A stretch of DNA of 64,000 nt from Verrucomicrobiia bacterium (GTDB lineage: Bacteria > Verrucomicrobiota > Verrucomicrobiia > Opitutales > Cerasicoccaceae), in assembly GCA_030432235.1 (NCBI GenBank), contig JAUIHT010000001.1:1116001-1180000 (forward strand), written 5' to 3'. The translations under genes and the position numbers were made by a program. Under the pieces are notes generated by a model. The model was not told the origin of the DNA. It saw only the letters and a list, made by a program, of their open reading frames with translations, and did no database searches. Below, piece after piece: positions 22,852-26,193 of the stretch (within the stretch, counting starts at the first letter, position 1; every line of letters begins with the position of its first letter).

Positions 22852-23919
22852 CTACGAGGCGGTGCTCCGTTCTTCGAAGAATTCCTTCAGGACTTCGACA
22901 CGGGAGCGCTCCAGGTTTTCTTCGTGAACTTCCTCGCTGGTGCGCTGGCGTTCGAAGTTGGCCATCTGGCGGCGCATGCGCTGGAGGGCCATGTTCTGGA
23001 GCTGTCGCACGCGTTCGCGGGTAATGTCGAAGTGCTGGCCGACTTCCTCGAGGGTCAGCGGGCGTTCGCCGCCCAGGCCGAAGCGCAGGCGGATGATGTC
23101 AGCCTCGCGCTGATCGAGATCGTCGAGCATGTCGTTGACGTCGGAGATGAGCGACTTGCCACGCAGAGTCTCGAAGGGGGTGAGGGCGTTTTCGTCGCCG
23201 ACCAGCTCCCCGAATTCCGTGCCGTCCTCCTGGCCCACCGGGGCGTCGAGGCTGGTCGGGCGTACGCTGACTGACTTCAGGTGCGCGACTTTGCTCGGGG
23301 ACATCTCCATGGCGTAGGCGATTTCCTCGTCGGTCGGCTCACGGCCGAGCTCCTCCTGTAACTGCAGGGCCATACGGCGCATGCGCGCAATCTTGTCGAC
23401 GAGGTGAACAGGTAGCCGGATGGTCTTCGACTGGTTGGCCAGGGCGCGCTTGATGGATTGCTTGATCCACCAGGCTGCGTAGGTCGAGAGCTTGCCGCCC
23501 TTGTCCGGGTCGAAGCGTTCGACGGCTTTGATGAGGCCGATGTTGCCCTCGCTGATGAGGTCGAGCAGGGGCAGGCCGAAGTTCGAATAGTCGTGCGCTA
23601 TCTTAACGACGAGACGCAGGTTGGCCTGAATCATTTTCTGGCGCGCCTTTTCGTCGCCCTTTTGGATGCGGCGAGCCAGCTTCACTTCTTCCTCGGGAGT
23701 GAGGAGTGCGGTCTTGCCGATTTCGTGCAGGTAGAGCTTGAGCGGGTCCTTCTCGGAATGCGGCAGCTCTTCGTAAGTCTGCGGCTCGGGAGCGGCAGGC
23801 ACCTCACGATTGATCTTGGGCTGTTCCTCGGGCTGGGTTGCTTTCGGGGAACGGCTATCCCTTGGCGCGGCTTTGGCAGCGGCGCTTTTTGGGGATTTCT
23901 TGGCGGCCTTTTTAGGCAT
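22852..23919 (-). CDS. RNA polymerase sigma-70 family factor (RpoD/RpoS-type)
   Basis: 355 residues. A Lys/Ala/Pro-rich N-terminal tail precedes region 1.2 (DPLKLYLHEIGKTALLTPEE), region 2 (NLRLVVKIAHDYSNFGLPLL, STYAAWWIKQSIKRAL), region 3 (IRLPVHLVDKIARM) and region 4 (LRFGLGGERPLTLEEVGQHF, ITRERVRQLQ). It has no region 1.1 or non-conserved domain, so it is closer in size to RpoS than to a full RpoD. It would direct RNA polymerase to -10/-35 promoters. It lies only 48 bp downstream of trpE on the same strand, so it may be transcribed through trpE and its attenuator. Confidence 0.93.
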   Translation of the reverse strand: MPKKAAKKSPKSAAAKAAPRDSRSPKATQPEEQPKINREVPAAPEPQTYEELPHSEKDPLKLYLHEIGKTALLTPEEEVKLARRIQKGDEKARQKMIQANLRLVVKIAHDYSNFGLPLLDLISEGNIGLIKAVERFDPDKGGKLSTYAAWWIKQSIKRALANQSKTIRLPVHLVDKIARMRRMALQLQEELGREPTDEEIAYAMEMSPSKVAHLKSVSVRPTSLDAPVGQEDGTEFGELVGDENALTPFETLRGKSLISDVNDMLDDLDQREADIIRLRFGLGGERPLTLEEVGQHFDITRERVRQLQNMALQRMRRQMANFERQRTSEEVHEENLERSRVEVLKEFFEERSTAS

Positions 23920-23967: not shown

Positions 23968-25455
<1,488 letters not shown>

Positions 25456-25514: not shown

Positions 25515-25541
25515 AAAAAAAGCCGCCTCATTCCGGGCGGC
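25515..25541 (-). terminator. trp attenuator terminator
   Basis: On the minus strand GCCGCC-CGGAATGA-GGCGGC is followed by seven T. It lies between the leader peptide stop and the trpE ATG, 59 bp before the latter. Its 5' arm (GGCCGCCCGG, 25533-25542) can pair instead with CCCGGGTTGGCC in the leader ORF (25589-25600), which would form an antiterminator. Confidence 0.88.
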
Positions 25542-25557
25542 CGTTAAGCAAAGGTTT

Positions 25558-25578
25558 GTCGCGAATCTTACACGCGAC
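25558..25578 (-). promoter_or_regulatory. Hairpin at the leader peptide stop codon
   Basis: GTCGCG/CGCGAC 6-bp stem with a 9-base loop that includes the UAA stop of the leader peptide. It may act as a pause or protector hairpin in the attenuator. Confidence 0.45.
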
Positions 25579-25666
25579 GCCATCGCAGGGCCAACCCGGG
25601 CACGGCTACGCACCACCACACCTTGAGGGTGGAAAGGGTTTTCGCGGCTGCGATGTTCAATGACAT
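25568..25666 (-). CDS. trpL: trp operon leader peptide (32 aa)
   Basis: The ORF starts at ATG 25664-25666 and stops at TAA 25568-25570. It reads MSLNIAAAKTLSTLKVWW followed by CVAVPGLALRWRRV: two adjacent Trp codons at positions 17-18 and a third near the end, in 32 residues. A ribosome stalled on the tandem Trp codons would leave CCCGGGTTGGCC (codons 23-26) free to pair with the 5' arm of the terminator, allowing trpE transcription. With enough Trp-tRNA the ribosome would cover that stretch and the terminator would form. No strong Shine-Dalgarno is visible. The Trp codons, antiterminator and terminator agree well with ribosome-mediated attenuation. Confidence 0.85.
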   Translation of the reverse strand: MSLNIAAAKTLSTLKVWWCVAVPGLALRWRRV

Positions 25667-25746
25667 GATGCGCAATAAGACTTCGCTGAATCGAAAAGGC
25701 AACCCCAAAGCGTCTTCGCCCGCCGCGCGGAATGGCGCTATCTGTG

Positions 25747-26193
25747 TTAATGCTGCTCCGGCTGAGCCGCGTGGTCGAGCTGTAGCGGCTCGCGGTGGAA
25801 CTTCCGGCGCAGCCAGTTGATGCTGCGGCAAACGGGCTTCCAGCCGACGAGTCGCCTCTCCAGACGGTATTTGCCCGGGAAGTCGAGTGCCATGAAGCCG
25901 ACGAAAATCGTGAGCAATCCCTGGCCGGGCGTGACCAGCATGACGATGCCGATGATGATCAACAGCACGCCCACCAGATTGCGCGCGATCATGATCAGGA
26001 CGACGAGGGCAGGGTGCATTTGCCTCCAGCGGCCTTCATGGCGACGCTGATCCAGAAAGTAATCCGCCGGCATTCTGACGAGAATCACCGGGACCAGAAT
26101 GGCTGCCGCCACGAATAGCAGCAGGGTCAAGCCCGCAATCAGGCTTAGCACCGTGGCGTTGTCTTCTAAAAAGCTTTTGGTCGCTTCCCACAT
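25747..26193 (-). CDS. Small membrane protein with PGPGW-like motif
   Basis: 148 residues with a first hydrophobic helix (VLSLIAGLTLLLFVAAAILV), a loop with conserved charge (MPADYFLDQRR), and a second pair of hydrophobic segments around VMLVTPGQGLLTIFVGFMAL, the PGPGW-type motif (PF09656). The C-terminus is cytoplasmic and basic. The function of this inner-membrane family is unknown. It lies 18 bp upstream of the GH30-like gene's end on the same strand and just before the trp leader. Confidence 0.8.
   Translation of the reverse strand: MWEATKSFLEDNATVLSLIAGLTLLLFVAAAILVPVILVRMPADYFLDQRRHEGRWRQMHPALVVLIMIARNLVGVLLIIIGIVMLVTPGQGLLTIFVGFMALDFPGKYRLERRLVGWKPVCRSINWLRRKFHREPLQLDHAAQPEQH

Follow-up and report, generated by a model that had tools for sequence, protein, structure and literature searches.

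A candidate ribosome-mediated tryptophan attenuator before trpE in an Opitutales genome, and Trp leaders elsewhere in Verrucomicrobiota

The trpE gene of a Verrucomicrobiia bacterium (Opitutales; Cerasicoccaceae) is preceded by a short ORF with two adjacent Trp codons (WW), by an intrinsic terminator and by a sequence that pairs with this terminator. We propose, with a probability of about 0.6, that this element is a working ribosome-mediated Trp attenuator for trpE, isolated and probably of independent origin in its lineage. Leader-peptide attenuation is textbook regulation. The element lies in a window of 64,000 nt, the whole stretch of DNA that was analysed (positions 1,116,001-1,180,000 of contig JAUIHT010000001.1, assembly GCA_030432235.1). 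All coordinates given for the element are window positions, and trpE, the leader ORF, the terminator and the antiterminator are all on the minus strand.

The trpE leader and its predicted folds

The features of the region are the following, in the direction of transcription of trpE:

25747..26193, minus strand: gene for a PGPGW membrane protein of 148 aa (Pfam PF09656), upstream of trpE and co-directional with it
25675..25702, minus strand: promoter-like pair TTGCCT-16-TCTTAT, 8/12, weak, ending 8 nt upstream of the leader ATG
25568..25666, minus strand: candidate leader peptide ORF of 32 codons, MSLNIAAAKTLSTLKVWWCVAVPGLALRWRRV, from translation (ATG 25666, TAA 25570-25568)
25613..25618, minus strand: tandem Trp codons 17-18 (25618-25616 and 25615-25613), from the sequence; candidate site of ribosome stalling at low Trp-tRNA
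25589..25606, minus strand: antiterminator 5' arm GCCGTGCCCGGGTTGGCC, from the fold with a ribosome-masked 5' end; free when the ribosome is stalled at WW
25558..25578, minus strand: hairpin GTCGCG/CGCGAC whose loop holds the stop codon of the leader, from the folds
25515..25542, minus strand: intrinsic terminator GGCCGCC-CGGAATGA-GGCGGCT (stem 25542-25521, T's 25521-25515), from a terminator scan and the sequence
23968..25455, minus strand: trpE, anthranilate synthase component I, 495 aa (Pfam PF04715, Anth_synt_I_N, and PF00425, Chorismate_bind), the presumed regulated gene

The trpE start (25455) is sound, since residue 1 is aligned in all nine same-family relatives, with whose orthologues the protein shares 68-78% identity. 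The trpA gene of the same genome is on contig C4. A gene for a sigma-70 family factor (window 22852-23919, minus strand) begins 48 nt past trpE in the same orientation and might therefore also be reached by readthrough into trpE.

The sequence-only reading that this analysis follows up had described a 32-codon ORF with Trp at codons 17-18, a terminator 59 bp before trpE and an antiterminator pairing of 25589-25600 with 25533-25542. Translation confirmed the ORF on the minus strand; a third Trp stands at codon 29 and the frame is open well upstream of the ATG (87 codons from TTG 25831). The terminator has a 7-bp GC-rich stem and seven T's, ends 59 nt before the trpE ATG, and its 5' arm doubles as the partner of the antiterminator. 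The pairing of CCCGGGTTGGCC (25600-25589) with GGCCGCCCGG (25542-25533) was also recovered, and the fold lengthens it by GCCGT (25606-25602), which pairs with the 3' arm of the terminator. The antiterminator arm corresponds to codons 23-26, and the stop of the ORF lies about 19 nt past the arm.

The same reading had called the attenuator complete. This is right for the ORF, the WW codons, the terminator and the antiterminator, but a 1:2 protector hairpin, looked for in the folds of the trpE leader, is absent, the antiterminator arm lies inside the ORF and the fold of the untranslated leader is one of readthrough. Indeed, there is no competition between the antiterminator and the hairpin around the stop codon, which is therefore not a protector. 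The terminator probability of the untranslated leader is 0.06, which favours readthrough, versus 0.76-0.97 in 27 of 27 comparison leaders from the phylum; for E. coli we obtained 0.86 by a slightly different measure. Readthrough of the untranslated leader is thus predicted because, unlike E. coli trpL, it has no protector hairpin.

Switching was followed with a co-transcriptional score because E. coli trpL, the positive control, gives no switch in equilibrium folding. In the computed folds, the antiterminator score is 0.91 with the ribosome stalled at WW and 0.15 with the leader masked to the stop (0.50 and 0.00 for E. coli). The terminator probability is at most 0.01 when the RNA is free from the WW stall onwards and 0.98 when it is masked to the stop. 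The score of the stalled form is at least 0.4 in all 26 comparison leaders, but in only five of these 26 is the score with masking to the stop also at most 0.2.

From these folds we infer how the element would work. The transcript would start just upstream of 25666 and be translated immediately. At low charged Trp-tRNA, the ribosome would stall at codons 17-18 and leave 25606-25589 free; this stretch would pair with both terminator arms and RNA polymerase would read into trpE. With ample Trp, moving ribosomes would cover 25606-25589 while the terminator forms, and transcription would stop at about 25515. A lack of ribosomes on this stretch would give readthrough, and closely following translation would give termination. 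We counted against the attenuator that a ribosome parked at the stop codon would leave the greater part of the antiterminator arm free, and further its 7-bp stem, its readthrough fold when untranslated, its missing protector hairpin, its lack of conservation, its weak promoter, the looser switch tests and the absence of a convincing match to the RNA families tested.

The untranslated and WW-stalled leaders fold nearly alike (terminator probability 0.06 and 0.00), suggesting that the switch reads the presence of ribosomes on 25606-25589 more than their stalling. Such folds would also suit a trpE regulated by some other signal, or by translation-coupled readthrough that senses no amino acid, where leader translation itself picks the fold. 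We hold this to be very improbable; it leaves unexplained the tandem Trp codons, which are at stalling distance.

The putative promoter is weak, because a pair of at least 8/12 precedes 7.4% of about 3000 ATGs sampled in the same genome, and a stricter promoter scan gave no promoter-like site before the leader ORF. Among the comparison leaders, 10 of 26 have a pair of at least 9, and in nine of these ten the pair ends 7-10 nt upstream of the start. Lower scores were obtained for the remaining 16, and the promoter background was sampled from the genome of the window and not from theirs. The CATCATG start of the window leader is common to three of these 26 leaders (L235, L270 and L274).

Chance, coincidence and conservation

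Both the parts of the trpE leader and the distances between them are real, and chance is unlikely to have produced them together. For this comparison we used a sample of 464 kb of the same genome, window included, which holds 28 terminators between genes. A WW ORF lies upstream of only one of these 28, the one before trpE. Likewise, a WW ORF at matching spacing was found in one of 107 intergenic regions (at least 150 nt, before a gene), again that of trpE, while ORFs with at least two Trp occur in 18 of the 107. The antiterminator score of 0.91 is the highest among 37 terminators of this genome outside genes. It was matched by 20 of 2000 dinucleotide shuffles and by none in a run of 200.

Other measures were less selective. 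In equilibrium folding, 20 of 400 shuffles gave this switch at the identical position and 45 of 150 a switch anywhere, and looser thresholds for the stall/stop switch were passed by 35 of 200; as a whole, the leader region has no unusual stability (z -1.31). Seven comparison leaders were also shuffled, and their scores were reached by 167 (L235), 151 (L265), 85 (L271), 62 (E. coli), 48 (L287), 17 (L245) and 2 (L281b) of 200 shuffles. The antiterminator score is therefore supportive and not decisive, since several comparison leaders are often equalled by their own shuffles.

A different account is a coincidence, in which the terminator ends the PGPGW transcript, the trpE promoter lies within the 59 nt that follow, and the WW ORF is an open frame that arose by chance in a GC-rich spacer. 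Terminators between co-directional genes do occur (nine in the 464 kb, that of trpE included), and the one studied here could also serve the upstream PGPGW gene. The leader frame is open far upstream of its ATG. Within the family, the PGPGW gene (PF09656) was found in only one of ten genomes, that of the window, so the spacer as a whole may be of recent origin. In addition, the last 64 nt before trpE contain a 7/12 promoter-like pair, a level common in random stretches and found likewise in nine of nine relatives. This account does not sit well with the rarity of WW ORFs, of which the one found in 107 regions precedes trpE and is accompanied by the strongest antiterminator of 37. We regard coincidence as possible, though rather doubtful.

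The absence of the element from relatives also speaks for coincidence. The sequence-only reading had set beforehand, as a refuting observation, that the WW codons and stems be conserved in no relative. The comparison set consisted of the nine other genomes of the family, all with trpE and none congeneric with the genome of the window, and a WW ORF with a terminator before trpE was found in none of them (one, L005, with 212 nt upstream only). We then considered 141 distinct regions upstream of trpE (149 fetched minus 8 duplicates): five have a terminator, three a WW ORF and one, the window itself, has both, leaving none among the 140 others. From the strict rates of 3/141 and 5/141, simple arithmetic gives about 0.1 co-occurrence expected by chance in the set. 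One of the 141 is from Agathobacter (L052), and the others belong to the order of the window by kinship label or come from records named Opitutales, Opitutae, Opitutaceae, Cephaloticoccus or Verrucomicrobia; L051 and L053, in which the trpE start is missing, were left out. Throughout the analysis, short upstream stretches were counted in (L191 about 50 nt, L043 178, L005 212, L285 3). Conservation of the trpE attenuator in Opitutales is thus rejected, no relative examined having both parts, an outcome that by the sequence-only reading's own standard counts against the attenuator.

With a looser rule, a leader and a terminator are found in two of the 141 regions, the window and L199; the L199 'leader' is probably the tail of a coding gene that lies upstream, similar ends being seen by eye in L196-L200. 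In L003, a WW ORF lies farther upstream of trpE, with no terminator.

Trp leaders in other classes of the phylum

We also read trpE upstream regions elsewhere in Verrucomicrobiota, 'other class' being assigned by kinship labels and 'Opitutales' by record names. Among 60 regions from other orders and classes, 11 have a Trp-cluster ORF, 11 a terminator and seven both. In family f36, a Trp-cluster ORF followed by a terminator was found in 23 of the 30 trpE loci read, out of 37 listed places. The same arrangement precedes trpE in 17 of 21 loci of family f41, these 21 being taken from 25 (L308 and L317-L319, partial or at a contig end, were left out). In the order of G371, 30 of 38 matches were read; both parts occur in 16 of the 30 loci and a Trp-cluster ORF in 25, some of which (L337, for example) may be due to chance. 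The loci of these three groups are L263-L292, L295-L316 and L320-L349, and their leader peptides include MKTYANKSFYSCWWRWW, MNTRTCIFISNRWQWRW, MKYSTYNRNTGRWLWR and MQKLANISLNRWWLWR. Of 12 such upstream regions, none matches Rfam Trp_leader, for which E. coli scores 93.1 bits. At L247, about -159 to -105 before trpE, a leader MKNRFEQKNWRGWRRGP followed by a terminator was seen by eye, the leader having been missed by the scan rule.

Three loci (L281, L288 and L300) carry tandem units within 450 nt upstream of one trpE, that is two Trp leader ORFs, each with its own terminator. Tandem attenuators are known, as described for Salmonella mgtCBR (PMC3641672).

For covariation, a sequence-based alignment was made of 18 of 32 leaders, chosen for their common layout. 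In the antiterminator helix 97.2% of cells are paired and 13 cells are changed on both sides; the terminator helix has the same percentage with 8 such cells, related sequences being counted many times in both cases. For both helices, the percentage paired, the number of two-sided cells and the covariation score were reached by none of 500 shuffles, and when the partners are slid, pairing drops to roughly 70% or below. In each helix the two-sided changes come from two pairs, a number of pairs reached by 397 and 349 of the 500 shuffles. A three-way change from C-G-C to U-A-U (columns 32, 80 and 114), spanning segments 2, 3 and 4, occurs in six of the 18 leaders. For the 1:2 helix of the family, pairing is 91.3% and all changes are one-sided (G-U), no better than in shuffles. 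The covariation and the repeated Trp leaders together are good evidence for classical attenuation in these other classes, and we consider that Trp-leader attenuators before trpE form a clear and widespread family there, a stronger result than that for the window element. They show that the mechanism exists in the phylum, and we counted this for the window attenuator.

A covariance model, R1, was built from the 18 leaders and searched in 387 genomes of the phylum, with strict filters by which weak members may be missed. Matches at E of 0.001 or less were found in 57 of the 387 genomes, 51 of the 57 being in f36, f41 and f52. Twenty matches, picked mostly for lying off known trpE places, were read. 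In 17 of them (L360, L362-L371, L373-L377 and L379) a Trp-cluster leader precedes a trpB-type gene: 12 are TrpB-like (TIGR01415, NF009057) and five are trpB (TIGR00263), followed in two of the five by trpA. Leaders at these loci include MRNDFYNALSFGWWRRW and MKTLTLNITNIFGWWRWR. The L361 match precedes a trpE-type gene (Pfam Anth_synt_I_N) and that of L378 has no Trp leader. In ten of the genomes whose R1 matches were read (G284, G338, G340, G391, G400, G416, G449, G450, G485 and G486), many of the assemblies being incomplete, no trpE match was found at E 1e-80.

A further match, at L372 (132-179), has a poly-Leu leader, MTMMLDNFLLLLLLR, before genes for a helix-turn-helix/cupin protein and an AMP-binding enzyme, and is perhaps a Leu-specific relative of the Trp leaders.

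We suggest, tentatively and at somewhat less than even odds, that trp attenuation has at least two origins in Verrucomicrobiota, one as a widespread family and one as an independent, reduced form in this Opitutales lineage. The former would stand before trpE, trpB, trpBA and TrpB-like genes, some of its leaders starting almost at the 5' end of the transcript and some being in tandem; the latter would lack the protector hairpin, absent translation meaning readthrough.

Comparison with known attenuators

Leader-peptide attenuation is best documented in Proteobacteria and Actinobacteria; in 2010 the authors of PMC2965389 knew of no leader peptide system shown outside these two before the Firmicutes case that they themselves described, except for the atypical ermC leader. 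The sequence-only reading knew of none described in Verrucomicrobiota. For trpE or trpB, no description of a trp attenuator in this phylum was found among the titles listed from the open-licence literature, a scope outside which most subscription papers lie; a word search for Verrucomicrobi(a) gave nothing in the main texts of PMC2965389, PMC4833913, PMC3766115 and PMC1262725. The titles listed thus agree with that reading, but such attenuators do exist in the phylum, outside the class of the window. The family before trpE, trpB and TrpB-like genes in several Verrucomicrobiota families would extend the known range of leader-peptide attenuation, and its single, tandem and relocated attenuators form a natural series for studying the origin and relocation of attenuators. 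If the window element is real, it would represent a separate and minimal origin of trp attenuation.

Like E. coli trpL (Rfam RF00513, Trp_leader), the window element has a short tandem-Trp ORF, a terminator before trpE and an antiterminator that uses the terminator 5' arm. Unlike trpL, it has no 1:2 protector hairpin, its stop codon lies past the antiterminator arm, and it is predicted to read through when untranslated. Membership of RF00513 was rejected, the window element giving no match and the E. coli control 93.1 bits.

In Actinobacteria, as reported in PMC1262725, Trp attenuators have two or three UGG codons in the leader, a GC-rich terminator with a U tract and complementary triples gGCC-rGCy-GGCC, and occur in all Corynebacterium and Streptomyces genomes considered there. 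Similarly, the window element has GGCC in both antiterminator arms; in contrast to the Actinobacteria attenuators, it was found in one genome of its order.

Membership of R1 was also rejected: the window element scored 9.0 bits (E 0.022 in 1.2 kb), against 8.8 bits for an unrelated plus-strand stretch. The R1 model gave no match in the genome of the window at 1e-3, and the one match at the window's locus (L001), of 17.3 bits, falls where the stretch was cut off and away from the leader. The aligned R1 set, unlike the window element, has a stop-codon hairpin together with covarying 2:3 and 3:4 helices. The two are alike in having a Trp-rich leader ORF and then an intrinsic terminator upstream of trpE, and in the window, as in some R1 leaders, the leader start is close behind a promoter-like pair. 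The distance from the Trp codons to the terminator is 73 nt in the window versus 48-113 in the comparison leaders of the phylum, and 14 codons follow the last clustered Trp versus 0-20. We conclude that the window element, a member of neither of the RNA families tested (RF00513 and R1), probably works like an attenuator.
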